Shown here: positions 5,857-17,182 of the stretch, in pieces
Layout of the letters: each line of letters opens with the position of its first letter
Position numbering within the stretch: the stretch's first letter is position 1
Virus record (IMG/VR): IMGVR_UViG_3300033146_000636
Location: 1-50,529 of that record
DNA length: 50,529 nucleotides
Origin: a virus
Direction: 5' to 3' (one strand)
Program-made: the position numbers and the translations under genes
The notes under the pieces: generated by a model
The model's input: only the letters and a program-made list of their open reading frames with translations
Told to the model about the DNA's origin: nothing
Databases searched by the model: none

Positions 5857-6318
5857 ATGGTTAAATTTAAGATTATTGAAAGTATCACAGATGCAACAGG
5901 TGGACACCGTGGTAATGTTTCCAAGAGTGGTTATGGTATAAATAAACATGATGATGTTAATAATAGAGTAATCGATAATTCACAAGTTGAGACTAAGATT
6001 GATAGTGATTTAGAAATGGATCTTCTAAAGGCAATGGCTGCTGAGAAAGAGAAGGGTACGTACAAAACTGAGGTTGTAGAGGTTAACAAGTTCAAGAATA
6101 ATTTCATGGTTGGTAAAAAAGTAGGTTATTTCAATTTAAACATACCAATTGCTGTTATACTCAATAAGAGGATTGGTGGTGAAAAGTTTAAAAATTTACC
6201 TGATGTATATTTATCCACTAGTTTATATGATGCAATTAAAGATGGTAAAATTGATAAGGTAGAATATAAAATTTTCAATTATGAAATGTTTATAAAATCT
6301 AAATTAAAGCGAAATTAA
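5857..6318 (+). CDS. tagged protein, candidate internal head protein
   Basis: 153 aa starting MVKFKIIES; predicted processing after I-I-E. Residues 10-45 are polar and likely disordered (ATGGHRGNVSKSGYGINKH), followed by a charged helix (DLEMDLLKAMAAEKEKGTYK) and a C-terminal domain with mixed structure. RBS TTAGGAGATCAA; a candidate late promoter lies 17 bases upstream. The size, basic/acidic mix and lack of enzyme motifs fit an injected internal protein. Confidence 0.65.
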   Translation: MVKFKIIESITDATGGHRGNVSKSGYGINKHDDVNNRVIDNSQVETKIDSDLEMDLLKAMAAEKEKGTYKTEVVEVNKFKNNFMVGKKVGYFNLNIPIAVILNKRIGGEKFKNLPDVYLSTSLYDAIKDGKIDKVEYKIFNYEMFIKSKLKRN

Positions 6319-6605: not shown

Positions 6606-7937
6606 ATGAGATTTAGAATAATAGAGGCTCAATTAAATGAAAAGTTAAGTCTAGATTTAGCTAGACGTATTACCAGAGATTATGGTTGGGATAGAAATCT
6701 TTATGATGATATGTTTGGTAAAGGGATATGGAGAGTTAATATACCTTTAGGTGAAGTTAATCCTTGGAATGATATTGAAGATGCACTTGAAAGAGGTGGT
6801 TATTCAGTTAAAGATGGTAAAGCAATAAAGGGTGAACAAGAGACTAAAATAGGTAAAGCACTTGGTAAATTAAAAATTGACAAGGGTACTATAAGTACAT
6901 TACAAAAAAAATATGCAACTCTTTCAGATGAAAGTAGTAAATCTGGGAAAGAACAATCTGAATATAATGTAATTATTTCTAGACACCCATATGATATAAT
7001 AGGGATGTCCGCAGATAGGTCATGGACATCAGATAGTTGTATGAGGGTTGATGGAAAAACCGGTGAATGTTTAACTAATCAAGCACAATCTGCATATAAA
7101 CATGTTAAAATTAATTCTTTGATTGCTTATGTTGTTAAGAGTACAGATACTAATATAAATAATCCTATAGGGCGATATCTGATAACTCCATATGAAAATA
7201 ATGATGGTGTATATTTAAAACGTAATAGCAGTGTATATGGGAAAACAGTTGAAGGTTTTGAAGACGCAATAGATGATTGGTTAAATGAGAACCAGAAAGA
7301 ATTATCAGGAATTTTTAATTTTCCAGATGTATATAATGATGGTGACGCCGAAAGTATTTCTCGTGTGGGTGAAGAATATAGATTAAAAACTATAAATGAG
7401 TTAAAAGAATATGGTGTTATTAAATGTGATATCAAAGACGAAGGTTATGGTAATTGGTTTATAGAAGATCTATTGAATGGTTACATCAAAGTAACAGATG
7501 CTATTATAGATATAACCACTGAATATTCTATAATTTTTAAATCTGGGACTTGGGAAAAGGGAATCTGGGAATACGGGGAATGGATAGATGGAACTTGGAA
7601 AGATGGAACTTGGGTAGATGGAACTTGGAAAGGTGGAACTTGGATAGATGGAGTTTGGGAAGATGGAATTTGGAGAGGTGGAGTTTGGAAAGGTGGAACT
7701 TGGGAAGATGGAGTTTGGAAAGGTGGAACTTGGAAAGATGGAACTTGGAAAGATGGAGTTTGGGAAGATGGAGTTTGGGAAGGTGGAATTTGGAGAGGTG
7801 GAATTTGGGAAGGTGGAGTTTGGGAAAAAGGTGAAATTGAATATGCCCGAGATTATTCAAATATGGAAGGGAAGACGGCTACAAGTTATGAAGATCCCAA
7901 TACATTCAAACTAAAAATCGAACAAAAAATTGTTTAA
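6606..7937 (+). CDS. tagged protein with C-terminal Trp-pentapeptide repeats
   Basis: 443 aa, starting MRFRIIEA (processing predicted after I-I-E, before Ala). Residues 10-310 form a polar domain containing the segment SRHPYDIIGMSADRSWTSDS, a pattern found in uncharacterised phage proteins. Residues about 314-408 hold some 19 tandem pentamers of the type G-(T/V/I)-W-(K/E/R/I/V)-(D/G), predicted to build a long regular beta structure with stacked tryptophans. A short tail follows. RBS AAGGTGATAAG; a late-promoter candidate is 19 bases upstream. Tag and promoter suggest a virion protein, perhaps injected. Function unknown. Confidence 0.75.
   Translation: MRFRIIEAQLNEKLSLDLARRITRDYGWDRNLYDDMFGKGIWRVNIPLGEVNPWNDIEDALERGGYSVKDGKAIKGEQETKIGKALGKLKIDKGTISTLQKKYATLSDESSKSGKEQSEYNVIISRHPYDIIGMSADRSWTSDSCMRVDGKTGECLTNQAQSAYKHVKINSLIAYVVKSTDTNINNPIGRYLITPYENNDGVYLKRNSSVYGKTVEGFEDAIDDWLNENQKELSGIFNFPDVYNDGDAESISRVGEEYRLKTINELKEYGVIKCDIKDEGYGNWFIEDLLNGYIKVTDAIIDITTEYSIIFKSGTWEKGIWEYGEWIDGTWKDGTWVDGTWKGGTWIDGVWEDGIWRGGVWKGGTWEDGVWKGGTWKDGTWKDGVWEDGVWEGGIWRGGIWEGGVWEKGEIEYARDYSNMEGKTATSYEDPNTFKLKIEQKIV
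7545..7831 (+). repeat. 15-bp tandem repeats encoding Trp pentamers
   Basis: About 19 units of the 15-mer pattern GGA-(A/G)(C/T)T-TGG-(A/G)AA-(A/G)(A/G)T encode the pentamers. The repeat leaves several other reading frames open on both strands; those are by-products. Unit number is likely to vary by slippage. Confidence 0.9.
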
Positions 7938-8951: not shown

Positions 8952-9281
8952 ATGGATAAGACTATAGAAGATAGAATTGATGAAAAAGTTAAATTAATAA
9001 GAGAATTAGATTCACAACTTGTAATGACCCAGGATTTATATCAAAGTATGACTAGTAATTATAAGGATCTATATGAGACTAATAAGGCCAACGTTAACTC
9101 ACAACATATAAATGGTTTCGCTAGTTTATTAAAAGCTATGAATGATTTATTCAAACAGAAGGGTCTATTGCAGAATGAGATCAATGATTTAATAGATTCC
9201 GATGGTATAGTAATAAACGAAAATGAAGATGAGTTAACTGGTAGTAAAGAAGATATATTAAAATTGATTAAAAATGGTTAA
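8952..9281 (+). CDS. coiled-coil protein, possibly small terminase (gp16-like)
   Basis: 109 aa, almost entirely helical and charged (IDEKVKLIRELDSQLVMTQD; LLKAMNDLFKQKGLLQNEIN), with an acidic stretch before the end. In T4-like phages a small coiled-coil terminase subunit (gp16) precedes gp17; here a large PAS gene and a membrane-protein gene intervene before terminase. The size is somewhat below gp16. The gp16 call is inference from position and coil content only. Overlaps the next gene by 8 nt. Confidence 0.45.
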   Translation: MDKTIEDRIDEKVKLIRELDSQLVMTQDLYQSMTSNYKDLYETNKANVNSQHINGFASLLKAMNDLFKQKGLLQNEINDLIDSDGIVINENEDELTGSKEDILKLIKNG

Positions 9282-11322
9282 GTTTTTATTTAATAAAGAA
9301 AAGAAGATAAAACATAGGGATGATTTTCTATATGACAAAAAACCTGTGAGGTGGTATGATACTCTACTCTCATACAGATTATTGGTACTTCTGACATTTA
9401 TGGTATTTTTCATATCAACACAATTGATATTATTTGGTGCAACTGTATCAATAGTTATGAAAATACTCATGGTTATTATATTAGGTTTAGTATCTTCAGT
9501 GTTATTGATATTGTCTAGTTTTATAATAATAAATGGTCACTATAAGATATTTACAAAAGATGTAAAAATTAAAAATAGAGAATTAATTAGTAACAAGGAA
9601 ACAATACACAATCTTGAGATATCTGAAAATAAAAATCGTAAACAATTTGAGACAATATTCAACAAGTCCCCTGATATGTATTATATAATAAATCTAGAAT
9701 CAGGTGTTATAATAGATGTTAATCAGCAAGCCATAAATCAATTAGGGTATAATAAGAAGGAAGACATTGTTGGTTCAGACGCTAAAAAGATATTTGTACA
9801 CCCAGATAGTTATAGTAAATTTGAAGATCAATGGAATGATATCAAAAAACAAAAAAGATTGATACACAAATTAAAATTCCAAAAGGTTACTAAATCTGGA
9901 GATAAAATAGATGTCATAGAGAGTGCAATAGTTTTAAAGAATGGTATAGAAAAGGTATTGCTAATATGTAGAGATATAACAAAAGACTTGAGACTAAGAA
10001 GTGAATTGAGAGAAAGTAAAAATGCCATGAACACTATCATCGAGCAAGATAATAGATCAATAATAATATTAAATGATGATAATAAGAAAGTAGATTTTGT
10101 GAACACATCAACACTGAAATACTTTGGTTATAACATAGATGAATTTCTAAAACTAAACCTCAATGATATATTCATCATAAATGATGTTAGATTCAAATCA
10201 ATATTCGACATCATAGATACAGGATTAAATAATGGTAGGATCTATAAAGAGATTATAGGTGTTAAGAATAGTGGTGACGAAATCAATATAGCCCTATTAG
10301 TTATAAAACTAATAATCGAACAAGGTGAACACGCACTCATGATAATGGATGATATAACGGAGAAAATAAAAACAAGTAAGAAGTTAACCGAGGCTAAACA
10401 CAATATTAAATCATTAATAGATTATTCACCTAATGGTATATTAATACTAGAAAATATGAAAATAAAGGAAGTCAATCCAATATTCCAAAAAATGTTTGGA
10501 GTTAATAACTTAGATATAATAAACAAAGATGTTGAGCACATGATTGATGAATATAAGATTTTCGAAGATACAGAGATAATATGTAACCATAAAAATGATG
10601 AATCAATAACAAGTATGTTATATTCATTAAACCGCGGGGAGTATAAACAAAAAAACCTGAAATTGAGACATATTGATAGATCTGGTACTAAGAAATGGTT
10701 AAGTGTAACTGGTTATAATACTTATATAAGTGGGAATATATATAATACAATGATAATAATCACAGATATAACAGAATTAATGGATATGAGTCTAAAACTG
10801 AAAATGAACACTTATAATTTAGAACATTTCTTCGATATAACAACAGATGCAATATATGAAACAGATAAAGATTTTAATATATTAAATGTTAATGGTAATT
10901 TTAAAAAATTGGTTGGGGATACTGAATCAGATTATGTAGGTAGATATATATATGATTTCGTTTCAGATAAGAGTAGAAACGAATTAATTGGTAAAAACAT
11001 ACAAAGGATAAGAGATGTTAATAAAAATGTAGTTGAGAAAAAAATAATAATTACGGATGCAACAGGTAAAGAACATCTGATAAACGTTTCATCTGTATTC
11101 AAATTCGACGAAAAAGATAATTTTACCGGGTCGTTTGGTATAATAAAGGATATATCTATTACAATAGATGAATATAAACAAGAAGTAAATAAACTGGATA
11201 AACTCACAGAAGGACTGAATGACATCTTAGAGGATAGTGCAATATCAAACCATTTGAAGGATATAAATAAACTTATGAGTAGAAACCTAAATTTAGAAGA
11301 GACTATTATTGAGGAATTATAA
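9274..11322 (+). CDS. membrane-anchored multi-PAS sensor without output domain
   Basis: 682 aa. Two TM helices (about residues 34-56 and 62-87) with no sizeable periplasmic loop, a short coil, then four PAS domains: about 122-240 (FNKSPDMYYIINLESGVIID), 250-365, 375-500 (YSPNGILILENMKIKEVNPI) and 515-630 (TTDAIYETDKDFNILNVNGN). Each ends in a D-I-(T/S) linker typical of PAS chains. The last 50 residues are helical. No histidine-kinase, GGDEF, EAL or methyl-accepting domain follows. It should sit in the inner membrane with PAS domains in the cytoplasm, and might bind and interfere with host sensor proteins. Followed after 1 nt by a membrane coiled-coil gene, a possible partner. Confidence 0.8.
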   Translation: MVKFLFNKEKKIKHRDDFLYDKKPVRWYDTLLSYRLLVLLTFMVFFISTQLILFGATVSIVMKILMVIILGLVSSVLLILSSFIIINGHYKIFTKDVKIKNRELISNKETIHNLEISENKNRKQFETIFNKSPDMYYIINLESGVIIDVNQQAINQLGYNKKEDIVGSDAKKIFVHPDSYSKFEDQWNDIKKQKRLIHKLKFQKVTKSGDKIDVIESAIVLKNGIEKVLLICRDITKDLRLRSELRESKNAMNTIIEQDNRSIIILNDDNKKVDFVNTSTLKYFGYNIDEFLKLNLNDIFIINDVRFKSIFDIIDTGLNNGRIYKEIIGVKNSGDEINIALLVIKLIIEQGEHALMIMDDITEKIKTSKKLTEAKHNIKSLIDYSPNGILILENMKIKEVNPIFQKMFGVNNLDIINKDVEHMIDEYKIFEDTEIICNHKNDESITSMLYSLNRGEYKQKNLKLRHIDRSGTKKWLSVTGYNTYISGNIYNTMIIITDITELMDMSLKLKMNTYNLEHFFDITTDAIYETDKDFNILNVNGNFKKLVGDTESDYVGRYIYDFVSDKSRNELIGKNIQRIRDVNKNVVEKKIIITDATGKEHLINVSSVFKFDEKDNFTGSFGIIKDISITIDEYKQEVNKLDKLTEGLNDILEDSAISNHLKDINKLMSRNLNLEETIIEEL

Positions 11323-11942: not shown

Positions 11943-11962
11943 AACCCGTTCGAACCCGTTGG
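11943..11962 (+). repeat. dispersed element: tandem AACCCGTT copies
   Basis: AACCCGTTCGAACCCGTT followed by GGGG, in the gap before the terminase gene. The GGGG probably doubles as the ribosome binding site for ATG 11971. Confidence 0.75.
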
Positions 11963-11970
11963 GGATAAAA

Positions 11971-13809
11971 ATGAATAAGAAATTTGATACAAGAAGGAAT
12001 ATATTCACCAAGAAACAAGGTGAAATAATGAAAAAGTGTTCAGAGGACATATTAGAATTTGTTAAATATGTTCATATATTCCACCCAAAAAAAGGTTGGA
12101 TTTTAGCAGGTGATAATTTATATGATAAACAAAAAGAAGTATTAAAAGAACTGTCATTAAATTGGGATTCTAAGTATCACGTTGTACTATCAGCTAGACA
12201 GTCAGGAAAGTCAACATTAATACTACTATTATCACTATGGATAATAACTTTTTCATCTGGTAGAGTAATAGCTATACTAGCACATAAACAAAAAGCTGCT
12301 CAAGGTTTATTTAAAAGATTCAGTATAATGTATCATAAATTAGAACCATTCTTTAGATTATCCCAAGAGATTGGAGATAGTAAAGTAGAACTACAATTAG
12401 CAGATGGTACCACAGTATTTTGTGGAACAACAACCCCAACGGGTTTAAGGTCAGAATCGCTTTCACTTTTGATAACCGATGAGTTCGCATTTGTTCCTGA
12501 GACAGTTGCTGAAGAATTTTACTATGCTAATATGCCTACTTTAGAACAGATGAATGGTGGTTACATAGCTATATCAACACCTAATGGTAAAGGTAATATA
12601 TTCTATGATTTGTATAAAAAAGCAAAAAATTGGAAAGATAAGAAGTGGGGCTTATTAGAAATTGGTTGGCGGGATGTATTTGATAGAGATATCAAATGGA
12701 AGAATGAGAAGATAAAAGAACTGTCTATACAAGGTAAAAGTGGACAAGAGGCATTCGATAGAGAATATGGAAATAGTTTCGACGTTCTTGATGATGGAGT
12801 AAAGTTTTTCGATCAAAGAGTTTTAGCTGAAATGAAACAATCCAATTTGATGGATGTGTACACATATAACGATTTTACAATAGATATATTCAATGATTTA
12901 ATAACATCAAACCCATATGTTGTTGGTGTAGATCTAGCAGAGGGGAAAGGTAACAATTTCTCAGTCTTAGCAGGATTTGAAATTAACTCACAACGAAATG
13001 AATATGGTGAGATATACAATTTAAATCATGCATTTCATTTTTTGGAATCAGGTATAAAGATTGACGAGTTCTTTAATTTAACATTTAAATTTTTGATTGG
13101 TGAATTAAATGATAAATGGTTTATGGTATTCGAGACTAATGATATAGGTAGAAACTGGGATATGAGGTTTAGATATTTATTAGATGAATTAGTGGCAGGA
13201 ACATTATCAAATAAGAATAGAGTATTTATAGACTTATTAACTGATAAGTTTGAAGGTGACACCACTCTGATGGTTGATTACCTATCACAACGTGTATTCA
13301 GAAGAGTTGATAAAAGTGGAGACTATGAATATGGTATGAAAGCTGATGTTAAAACTGTCCCGTTATTAAAATCTACTATGAAGAGGATGGTTGATGATGA
13401 AGAAATTATATTCAAAGATGGTAGATTAATACTGGAAGCCAGACAGTATGAAGATAAGGGTGGGAGAATAAAACCAGTCAAATTCGATACTAAGGTAGGT
13501 AATAGTAATTACGATAATCTAGCGGCAGTTAGAACGAGTTTATTACCATTTACAGAATTGAGTTTATTACAAACTGTTATGGGGTTACAACCATTGACAA
13601 GAGAATCAACTATAAAGAATAAAGCTAGCCAGATGTTAGATGTTATAGCCCGCGTCAGACAAACGACGAGAAGTACAGACCGGATGGAGGCTATGATGAT
13701 GATAGACGAATTTGAAAAACAATTTGGTATACCAGGAACTGTTCCGTTATCCATCTCAATCCCTGATAGTACCAGTGGTTGGAAGAACAGGCGTGGATAC
13801 TTTAAATAA
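11971..13809 (+). CDS. terL: terminase large subunit (gp17-like)
   Basis: 612 aa, near the T4 gp17 length. The N-terminal packaging ATPase has Walker A SARQSGKST (about residues 74-82) and Walker B LLITDEF (about 166-172, catalytic Glu). The C-terminal RNase H-like nuclease starts around residue 317 with VVGVDLAEGKGNN (first metal-binding Asp), and its distal acidic residue lies in NYDNLAAVRTS. The protein pumps and cuts DNA at the prohead portal. ATG 11971 is chosen over an upstream TTG in the palindromic element. Followed by a truncated paralogue. Confidence 0.95.
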   Translation: MNKKFDTRRNIFTKKQGEIMKKCSEDILEFVKYVHIFHPKKGWILAGDNLYDKQKEVLKELSLNWDSKYHVVLSARQSGKSTLILLLSLWIITFSSGRVIAILAHKQKAAQGLFKRFSIMYHKLEPFFRLSQEIGDSKVELQLADGTTVFCGTTTPTGLRSESLSLLITDEFAFVPETVAEEFYYANMPTLEQMNGGYIAISTPNGKGNIFYDLYKKAKNWKDKKWGLLEIGWRDVFDRDIKWKNEKIKELSIQGKSGQEAFDREYGNSFDVLDDGVKFFDQRVLAEMKQSNLMDVYTYNDFTIDIFNDLITSNPYVVGVDLAEGKGNNFSVLAGFEINSQRNEYGEIYNLNHAFHFLESGIKIDEFFNLTFKFLIGELNDKWFMVFETNDIGRNWDMRFRYLLDELVAGTLSNKNRVFIDLLTDKFEGDTTLMVDYLSQRVFRRVDKSGDYEYGMKADVKTVPLLKSTMKRMVDDEEIIFKDGRLILEARQYEDKGGRIKPVKFDTKVGNSNYDNLAAVRTSLLPFTELSLLQTVMGLQPLTRESTIKNKASQMLDVIARVRQTTRSTDRMEAMMMIDEFEKQFGIPGTVPLSISIPDSTSGWKNRRGYFK

Positions 13810-13827: not shown

Positions 13828-14436
13828 ATGAAAGAATTAAAATTTATGAATCAAGCTCGGGGAATAATACAAACAACTGATAATTTATATCCAAAACAAA
13901 GAGAAATTATTGAAGAATTAATTAAAAATTATAACAAATTCAAATACATTATAACAGGAAGTAGACAAACTGGGAAAAGTTTAATGATGTTATTGTTGTC
14001 CATCAATTTAAAAGATGTGAAAATAACAATAATGTCAGTTAATAAAAGAAATAGTAAAAACTTACAAGATAATTATATGCGAATTATACAAAGATCTGAA
14101 GATGTTGTTGATACCAAAAATGTAAAATTCATATCTTTTAATAATGAAATCCCAGATGATACGGAATTGTTAATATTAGATGAAATGGGATTCTACACCA
14201 ATGATGGATTTGAATACGAAAAATACTTAAATGAATATGATGGTAGGTTTATTGCAATATCTACGAGTGGGACTAATTCATTATTCAATCAATTCGTTGA
14301 AGATTCTAAACATTCAGATAAATGGAAATTATTAACTATAAATTGGGATGAAGTTTTTGGACATGACCAAGAATGGAAAAATGAACAAATTAGACATCTA
14401 GGTGAAGAAACATTTAAAAAATATTATGAATTATGA
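13828..14436 (+). CDS. terminase-like ATPase domain without nuclease
   Basis: 202 aa behind AAGGAGAATAC. It aligns by eye with the first half of the adjacent terminase: YPKQREIIEEL near residue 20, Walker A TGSRQTGKS (43-51), Walker B LLILDEMGF (114-122), IAISTSGTN, and NWDEVFGHDQEWKNEQIR matching WRDVFDRDIKWKNEKIK. The protein stops exactly where the terminase nuclease domain would begin; an HNH gene overlaps its end in the +1 frame. The motor residues look intact, so it may be functional. Likely a duplicated terminase whose nuclease half was lost or replaced by HNH; decay after homing-endonuclease insertion is the alternative. Confidence 0.8.
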   Translation: MKELKFMNQARGIIQTTDNLYPKQREIIEELIKNYNKFKYIITGSRQTGKSLMMLLLSINLKDVKITIMSVNKRNSKNLQDNYMRIIQRSEDVVDTKNVKFISFNNEIPDDTELLILDEMGFYTNDGFEYEKYLNEYDGRFIAISTSGTNSLFNQFVEDSKHSDKWKLLTINWDEVFGHDQEWKNEQIRHLGEETFKKYYEL

Positions 14437-15347: not shown

Positions 15348-15668
15348 ATGAAGTTTAAAATTTTAGAAAGTGTTGACAATTTTGAAGAGATCAAACGACT
15401 CTTGGATCAGGCTGCAAAAGAGTTAGCTGTATCAAATATCAAGAATGACCAAGATTATATGCCAGAGATCACACAAATCCTTAGTGATATATTCGAAGAT
15501 GATGATTCTGGATATTCCACATGGGAGTTATCAGATAGATTAGACGAAGTTGCTGATTATTTCAACAAAAGTTATGATATGATATATTCAGAATTAACTA
15601 ATTCTAATTATGACCCAGAAGGTGATAAGGCAGATGATAAAATTATGATGAAAAAAGAGGAATTTTAA
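15348..15668 (+). CDS. tagged protein, candidate internal head protein
   Basis: 106 aa starting MKFKILES, the consensus form of the tag. The body is acidic and helical (DNFEEIKRLLDQAAKELAV; ILSDIFEDDDSGYSTWELSD). RBS TTAGGAGTAAG. Its TAA overlaps the ATG of the next tagged gene (TAATG), so two internal-protein candidates are translated together. No enzyme motif seen. Confidence 0.65.
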   Translation: MKFKILESVDNFEEIKRLLDQAAKELAVSNIKNDQDYMPEITQILSDIFEDDDSGYSTWELSDRLDEVADYFNKSYDMIYSELTNSNYDPEGDKADDKIMMKKEEF

Positions 15669-15919
15669 TGAAATTTAAAATAGTTGAAACAGAACAAGTT
15701 TATTTCTCAGATTTAGATAGAGAATTCAACGAAGATGTTGATAGATTACAACATGATGATATGCCACACGGTGAACAAGAGATAGACGAATTCATTAAGA
15801 AATATAAATCATTAACAAAATGGTTCCCTAAGAAACCACTAGACCCTAAAGAGTTAAATGGTTGGATGAGGGAAGTGATAAGAAACATACATAACATAAT
15901 AGACGATAACATAAATTAA
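15668..15919 (+). CDS. tagged protein, candidate internal head protein
   Basis: 83 aa starting MKFKIVET; cleavage predicted after I-V-E. The body is helical and acidic (FSDLDREFNEDVDRLQHDD). RBS AAAGAGGAATTT in the previous gene. The stop codon (15917-15919) shares bases with the flagellin promoter, so the flagellin unit was inserted or fused exactly at its end. Confidence 0.65.
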   Translation: MKFKIVETEQVYFSDLDREFNEDVDRLQHDDMPHGEQEIDEFIKKYKSLTKWFPKKPLDPKELNGWMREVIRNIHNIIDDNIN

Positions 15920-15943
15920 AGTTTACAAAATATTCTCCGATAT
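15917..15943 (+). promoter_or_regulatory. sigma-28 (FliA)-type flagellar promoter
   Basis: TAAAGTTT (15917-15924), 11 bases, TCCGATAT (15936-15943). The enterobacterial/epsilon consensus is TAAAGTTT-N11-GCCGATAA: the -35 is 8/8, the spacing exact and the -10 6/8. It points at the flagellin gene 50 bases downstream and shares no feature with the phage promoters of this window. Confidence 0.8.
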
Positions 15944-15952
15944 ATTAAACAT

Positions 15953-15970
15953 GAAAGCAAGGATGCTTTC
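15953..15970 (+). promoter_or_regulatory. hairpin in the flagellin leader
   Basis: GAAAGCA (15953-15959), loop AGGA, TGCTTTC (15964-15970): a perfect 7-bp stem in the 5' leader, close to the expected transcript start. The ribosome binding site CGGAGG lies 12 bases further on. May protect the mRNA end or regulate translation. Confidence 0.55.
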
Positions 15971-15993
15971 AAAATTATATCACGGAGGATATT

Positions 15994-16824
15994 ATGAGTT
16001 TTTCAGTTTTAAACAACATTTCTGGGATGAATGCCCAGAGAAATCTTTATTCAACAGAGTTAGGCTTAAACAAGACAATCTCTAGATTGTCTAGTGGTTT
16101 ACGTATCGTTGATGCTGGTGATGACGCATCTGGATTAGCAATCGCAAACAGCCTCAATGCAGATTATCACGCATTAACACAAGCAGTAAGAAATGCAACT
16201 GATGGTAAATCAATACTAAATGTTGCAGATGGTGCACTATCCAAAATCAGTGACCTACTCACTAGAGCGGTTACATTAGCTGAACAAAGTGCGTCGGAAA
16301 CTGTTGGGTCTGAAGAAAGAGTAACAATCAACGAGGAGTATCAAAGTCTATTATCTGAGATAGATAGAGTTGTATCTGTTACTAACTTCAAAGGGTCAAG
16401 ATTGTTCGATGAATCAGGGACTGTATCAAAGAGTATTTTTGTTGGTGATACCAATTTTGCATCAACAATTAACATTTCAATAGGTGGAGCTTCAGGAAGC
16501 AACTCAACATCTCTGGGATTAACAACGGACTTAACAACAGCGTCTAATGCACAGGATGTATTAGGTGAACTCAACAGTGCTATTGGTTCAGTATCGAGTT
16601 GGAGAGGTAGTTTAGGAGCACAATCAAACAGGCTGACAAATGCAGTATCTGTTATCAAGGTTCAAGCTCAGAACATTCTTGCTGCAAAGTCAAACATCCT
16701 AGATGCAGACATCGCACAGGAGATAAGCAACATGAACAAATTTCAAATTCTAATGCAGTCAGGTATGAGCTCTTTGGCTCAGGCTAACGCATCCTCACAG
16801 TTAGTAATGTCGTTATTCAAATAA
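15994..16824 (+). CDS. fliC: flagellin
   Basis: 276 aa, complete and intact. Residues 1-140 are the D0/D1 domain (LNNISGMNAQRNLYSTELGL; RLSSGLRIVDAGDDASGLAI; LLTRAVTLAEQSAS at 88-101, the segment matching the TLR5-binding helix; NFKGSRLFDE at 131-140). A short variable centre (about 141-195) is followed by the C-terminal D1/D0 (about 196-276: RLTNAVSVIKVQAQNILAAK; DADIAQEISNMNKFQILMQS; ends VMSLFK). Codon use is richer in C and G than its neighbours, which points to recent transfer from a host. It should be exported by the host flagellar type III system and polymerise. Own sigma-28 promoter; strong CGGAGGATATT site. Confidence 0.97.
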   Translation: MSFSVLNNISGMNAQRNLYSTELGLNKTISRLSSGLRIVDAGDDASGLAIANSLNADYHALTQAVRNATDGKSILNVADGALSKISDLLTRAVTLAEQSASETVGSEERVTINEEYQSLLSEIDRVVSVTNFKGSRLFDESGTVSKSIFVGDTNFASTINISIGGASGSNSTSLGLTTDLTTASNAQDVLGELNSAIGSVSSWRGSLGAQSNRLTNAVSVIKVQAQNILAAKSNILDADIAQEISNMNKFQILMQSGMSSLAQANASSQLVMSLFK

Positions 16825-16835
16825 CACGTTCAAGG

Positions 16836-16915
16836 TCCCAACGGGTTCGAACTTTAAAATGGGTTCGAACTTTAAAACGGGTTCGAACTTTAAAATGGTT
16901 TCGAACCCGTTGGGA
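16836..16915 (+). repeat. 18-bp tandem array inside an inverted repeat
   Basis: GGGTTCGAACTTTAAAA(T/C) is repeated three times (16843-16860, 16861-16878, 16879-16896). The array is bounded by TCCCAACGGGTTCGAA (16836-16851) and its exact reverse complement (16900-16915). It is built from the dispersed element plus a TTTAAAA spacer and lies 12 bases after the flagellin stop; as RNA it can fold in several registers and may end the flagellin transcript. Confidence 0.85.
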
Positions 16916-16975: not shown

Positions 16976-17182
16976 TTGAAGTTTATAATATTATCAGAGG
17001 CTAAACGGGTTCGAATGGGTTGGAAGGCCCGAATCAGAGTCGATGGTACTAGTATACCGGTTGATATTTTCCATGATGTAAAAGACTACAATAGTTTCGA
17101 TAAGTTAATAAAGTCTACATATGGTCAATCTTTTAAAGGTTATGTATCTTATCCGAAACCAAATTACGGGAGCAAAGCATGA
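16976..17182 (+). CDS. tagged protein (TTG start), candidate internal head protein
   Basis: 68 aa read from TTG 16976 five bases after TTAGGAG; the ATG at 16972 is out of frame and gives only ten codons. N terminus MKFIILSEA: the tag is one residue longer, and L-S-E/A still fits the prohead-protease rule. Residues 10-15 (KRVRMGW) are written by a copy of the dispersed element (17004-17021). The body is small and basic with a beta-rich part (ARIRVDGTSIPVDIFHD). Its end overlaps the next gene (ATGA). Confidence 0.6.
   Translation: MKFIILSEAKRVRMGWKARIRVDGTSIPVDIFHDVKDYNSFDKLIKSTYGQSFKGYVSYPKPNYGSKA

Follow-up and report, generated by a model that had tools for sequence, protein, structure and literature searches.

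Why a tailed phage should carry a flagellin gene, and whether this gene comes with host-type control signals, is the question raised by this locus. The analysed stretch, here called the window, is a virus record of 50,529 bases that probably represents a genome fragment. The locus comprises the following features, all on the plus strand:

15668..15919, + strand: upstream phage gene with an MKFKIVE- N-terminus (flank)
15917..15943, + strand: sigma-28 (FliA)-type promoter TAAAGTTT-N11-TCCGATAT (14/16; same box in Aminicenantia)
15952..15971, + strand: leader hairpin 1, TGAAAGC-AAGGAT-GCTTTCA (7 bp, loop AAGGAT), proposed upstream CsrA site
15977..15992, + strand: leader hairpin 2, ATATC-ACGGAG-GATAT, containing the Shine-Dalgarno (SD) sequence, proposed second CsrA site
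15994..16824, + strand: flagellin, 276 aa, Aminicenantia type (Pfam, tree, identity, fold)
16836..16915, + strand: large palindromic hairpin formed by GGTTCGAA, a repeat of the phage itself; may mark the 3' end of the unit (putative role)
16976..17182, + strand: downstream phage gene with TTG start and KFIIL- N-terminus (flank)

The surrounding genes are those of a T4-like block, with two gp17-type terminase ORFs, a neck protein, gp15, a gp18-like sheath, baseplate wedge and hub proteins and a tape measure, and the flagellin gene is located within the head/neck gene block. Every match of the contig to known phages was distant. By its genes, the virus is a very divergent T4-like myovirus. The adjacent terminase ORFs (11959-13809 and 13828-14436) both match the T4-like large subunit and may be read as a duplicated or split gp17. 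An N-terminal motif of the M-x-F-[KRI]-[IV] type is common to genes on both sides of the flagellin (15348, 15668, 16976, 17179, 17525 and 17793). With the ORFs at 5857 and 6606, eight ORFs have an M-x-F-[KRI]-[IV]-x-E-like start, as in MKFKILE, MRFKILE and MNFKILE; this shared start may be reminiscent of the leaders that target the internal head proteins of T4 to the capsid. The palindromic repeat GGTTCGAA, which directly follows the flagellin gene, is present in 15 copies in the contig against 0.5 expected, with strong hairpins at 1715-1765, 11945-11960, 16836-16915 and 17004-17015. These repeats are possibly terminators or a phage-specific regulatory repeat. Elsewhere in the window, positions 9274-11322 encode a 682-aa protein (617 aa from 9469) that has four PAS domains and what looks like a membrane segment. 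PHROG gave no match for it and the phage records contained no relative; by its domains it would be a sensor of bacterial type carried by a T4-like phage. A repetitive stretch at 7640-7914, within the 443-aa ORF 6606-7937, is open in more than one frame.

The flagellin ORF 15994-16824 is intact. Its Pfam matches to Flagellin_N (positions 2-139 of 139, E 2e-34) and Flagellin_C (positions 4-86 of 86, E 1e-20) both exceed the curated cut-offs, and the N- and C-terminal D0/D1 regions are complete, as the sequence-only reading of this DNA had stated for an undamaged gene with both conserved ends. The best matches by sequence and fold comparison were flagellins only: the structural model (pLDDT 75) has the flagellin fold, with flagellar filaments as top PDB matches (TM about 0.75). 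The protein is of the short type without an outer domain. The differing codon use claimed earlier was also found, since this gene was the most atypical of those tested, with a mean log synonymous-codon probability of -1.16 compared to -1.04 to -0.72 in the 29 other window genes of at least 120 codons, although its GC3 of 0.30 lies inside the range of the other genes.

Comparison with bacterial flagellins, which had been suggested as a check, placed the gene with the Aminicenantia. The nearest relatives belong to Candidatus Aminicenantes (Acidobacteriota), with about 60-64% identity. In a scan of 84,980 species genomes, which was productive with a two-sequence alignment and yielded nothing with single-protein patterns, Aminicenantes flagellins were 59-62% identical over the full length, and those of other Acidobacteriota reached at most 48%. 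Such a flagellin was present in 8 of 142 Aminicenantia genomes, with identities of up to 64%. In a tree of 54 proteins, the phage protein and 12 Aminicenantia proteins formed one clade (support 100/96), in which the phage flagellin was sister to all 12 (89/94; tip branch 0.19). The gene was thus grouped with bacterial flagellins rather than inside a phage-only clade, which, combined with no sigma-28 dependence, had been named as a refutation of the earlier reading. The flagellins of other viral contigs fell elsewhere in this tree. On this placement, the donor was probably an unsampled relative of the Aminicenantia.

From the flagellin, the Aminicenantia, a group of little-known bacteria, are probably the host of this phage. 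The tail sheath matches in Aminicenantia genomes were too weak for host assignment, since they were about 30% identical or short. Queries with the flagellin, tail sheath, baseplate and terminase returned no close phage relatives among viral contigs, a collection from which near-identical records may be left out. A search with an alignment of the phage and host flagellins added one further viral flagellin, 36% identical. Flagellin matches among 'phage' database records were set aside as unannotated and in many cases short.

The box TAAAGTTT-N11-TCCGATAT at 15917-15943 matches the consensus TAAAGTTT-N11-GCCGATAA at 14 of 16 positions with correct spacing, in agreement with the earlier description. 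No other sigma-28 match in the window is as good, the next one being 12/16, and about 0.05 matches of at least 14/16 would be expected per window by chance. As also noted before, the box starts inside the stop codon of the phage gene ending at 15919. Aminicenantia flagellin genes are preceded by the same box at the same place (12-13/16), in the main genes as TAAAG[TC]TT-N11-xxCGA, and FliA is encoded in 8/8 tested Aminicenantia genomes, one of them partial. If the promoter is used, the transcript would begin near 15950, just 5' of hairpin 1. The sole match of a sigma-70 scan of the 74-nt gap was 9/12 and overlapped the leader and the SD, a result to be read with the reservation that the phage's own promoters may differ. 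T4 late-promoter TATAAATA sites were not found in the flagellin leader. Since read-through from the upstream co-directional genes is possible, expression may not be confined to flagellated cells as had been proposed.

The leader hairpin of the sequence-only reading is present at 15952-15971. What had been missed is that this hairpin, to judge from its loop, is of the CsrA type and paired with a second hairpin on the SD, so that the unit would also carry translational control signals. The consensus site for CsrA is a hairpin whose loop contains GGA, ideally as the hexaloop ANGGAN, and in Bacillus subtilis CsrA blocks flagellin translation via two leader sites, one of them over the SD, while FliW removes CsrA and is itself titrated by flagellin (PMC7652899; PMC6070490). 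Both phage hairpins carry ANGGAN hexaloops with GGA in the loop, and the two-hairpin arrangement is the predicted layout of a CsrA-repressed flagellin leader of the hag type. Hairpins with such a loop and at least 5 bp occurred three times in the whole window, two of them in this leader; a pair was seen in none of 200,000 simulated 78-nt stretches. In the main Aminicenantia flagellin genes, the sigma-28 box is followed by a hairpin with an A[AT]GGAT loop and then by a second hairpin that encloses the SD, which is the order seen in the phage. Examples are GGGC-AAGGAT-GCCC with ACCTT-AAGGAG-GAGGT, and GAGC-AAGGAT-GCTC with TTAAATC-ATGGAG-GATTTAA. Three other Aminicenantia paralogues (L127-L129) are without the double-hairpin layout.

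A covariance model built from bacterial leaders only scored the phage leader at 40.8 bits and the next site at 7.9; its five leaders, four of them from close relatives, had been typed in from the loci and picked for this layout. Across the leader alignment, 54 of 54 cells were paired, compared to less than 50% when the partner was shifted by one column. Both-side, i.e., compensatory, changes were found in 5 of 9 pairs and in both stems, and the loops were nearly fixed. Thus, the structure was kept while its letters changed. CsrA and FliW were encoded close together in 5/5 tested Aminicenantia genomes, the presumed host group. An Rfam search of the leader returned no known RNA family. The hairpin as a terminator was ruled out, as no T run follows on the plus strand and it was listed for the minus strand only. 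A CsrA-type brake would act on read-through transcripts too.

Taken together, these data support a phage flagellin that is intact and under constraint, with conserved host-type control signals, and the earlier claim of a host-derived flagellar transcription unit is borne out by the shared box and leader and by the tree. We consider it fairly probable that a T4-like phage took over the flagellin transcription unit of an Aminicenantia-like host that was flagellated, that selection kept the unit intact and that it serves a regulated supply of filament protein. When the flagellar regulon is on in the infected cell, host FliA would transcribe the phage flagellin. CsrA would bridge the two leader hairpins and block the SD until FliW removes it. 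The phage flagellin would bind FliW and FliS, be exported and enter the filament; when in surplus it would, via FliW and CsrA, switch off its own translation. The likely gain would be continued, regulated filament protein, and hence motility, after phage damage to host gene expression; the benefit to motility is a guess. The control signals suggest that the virus feeds into the host swimming machinery rather than bypassing it. The explanation is limited by the single phage sequence, from which selection inside the phage would not be directly measurable.

Flagellin was also found on other viral contigs (including L087, L088, L107, L091, L097 and L112), the phage status of which was partly checked. 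L087, L088 and L107 are phage-like contigs of 122-146 kb, each with flagellin and the filament cap FliD; L087 also encodes RNA ligase, polynucleotide kinase and PhoH, L107 RNA ligase and L088 a phage-type DNA polymerase. By inspection, double hairpins are present in the L087 and L088 leaders, and TTGACA-N17-TATAAT lies upstream of the L088 flagellin. In L095 and L097 a Pfam-confirmed csrA is located just upstream of flagellin, and CsrA is also encoded on the record of L112, which has a 14/16 sigma-28 box, and on those of L091, L099, L103 and L105, in these four apparently just upstream of flagellin. The csrA-flagellin pair of L091 and L097 sits behind an endolysin gene. Further flagellins occur on contigs of 53-301 kb (L089/L090, L092-L094, L136). 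FliW was absent from all 14 records tested, the window included. A broader, tentative reading, to which we give less than even chances, is that several phage lineages infecting different bacterial phyla captured flagellin with FliA/CsrA control recurrently and independently, some taking the double CsrA hairpin and some FliD or CsrA itself, and thereby steer the FliW-CsrA switch and motility during infection.

Other explanations have to be weighed. The unit may act as a regulatory decoy that shifts host translation during infection, through binding of FliW by the phage flagellin or of CsrA by the leader RNA, with assembly into filaments being secondary. Both flagellin and leader are expected ligands of the FliW-CsrA switch, and csrA is also present on some other flagellin-bearing viral contigs. 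However, with just one leader of two sites on each transcript, the RNA would make a weak sponge, and the whole protein is conserved including the D0 ends, which titration alone would not need. Since the whole protein is constrained, filament supply and motility are preferred over an effect on the switch, and we regard the decoy as unlikely. An unselected passenger, i.e., a recently acquired host segment with no selected role, is in our view improbable as well. The atypical codon use and the self-contained position of the unit between phage genes fit such a passenger, and recent acquisition from an unsampled donor would look identical. Against this stands that the ORF, the promoter and both hairpins are intact and the stem changes are paired, although known donors reach only 60-64% identity.

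A swap of the filament surface that excludes competitor phages dependent on the flagellum or conceals the cell, as proposed earlier together with immune disguise, found no support and is very unlikely here. A precedent exists in FliCP, a prophage flagellin that takes the place of the host filament (PMC13418256). The protein here, though, is short and lacks outer domains. Its central region shares 51-65% identity with host flagellins, as against 54-57% between the central regions within two pairs of host flagellins. The central, surface-facing part of the phage flagellin is therefore no more diverged than hosts are among themselves. Moreover, a TldR-type gene is absent from the fragment: no PF07282 match to a TnpB/TldR-type gene was obtained in the 50,529-base window, which is a fragment only. 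Lastly, assembly chimerism around 15917-16830, which had been named as a possible refutation and is conceivable for a metagenome contig, is the most improbable account, since a join of phage and bacterial contigs would need two joins within about 1 kb, one exactly in the stop codon, whereas both flanks share the N-terminal motif, the phage's own repeat lies directly 3' of the flagellin, and the FlaG-like and FliD-like genes that come next in the bacteria are missing.

With regulated filament supply as the favoured explanation, the locus places a T4-like phage of an uncultivated phylum beside the temperate enterobacterial prophages as a carrier of flagellin. It suggests that the virus leaves a host gene subject to the post-transcriptional brake of the host instead of bringing it under phage control, and makes testable whether infection needs or alters flagellar output via the FliW-CsrA switch. 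The flagellin also gives a host lead, the Aminicenantia, for a phage without close relative among the searched phage records and viral contigs. In the literature, nothing direct was found on flagellin in large phages or together with FliD, although earlier reports in subscription journals may be missed.

Compared to the Aminicenantes genes (L008-L011, L030), the phage gene has 60-64% protein identity and the same promoter and leader layout. Downstream of those genes lie FlaG-like and FliD-like ones (by inspection), whereas the phage flagellin stands alone, which rules out that a whole host flagellar locus was carried over. Several of the other viral flagellin contigs resemble it in their CsrA-type leader hairpins; they are, however, unrelated phages whose flagellins are of other types and no more than 42% identical, and some of them also carry FliD or CsrA. 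The leader resembles that of B. subtilis hag in its two CsrA-type sites, one over the SD, with the difference that the predicted sites are phage-borne and that CsrA and FliW would be supplied by the host. Phage-borne flagellin is known from prophage FliCP with TldR, in the 'flagellin remodeling' phages of Enterobacter, and CsrA has been reported with chromosomal TldR-fliC loci (PMC13418256). As in the present locus, a tailed phage there carries an intact flagellin gene, the product of which is expected to enter the host filament. FliCP-TldR belongs to temperate lambda-like prophages; its flagellin has large outer domains, and the host flagellin is repressed by an RNA-guided mechanism. Here, the phage, the flagellin and the control are all of another type: the gene block is T4-like, the flagellin is short, and the signals are of the host FliA and CsrA type.
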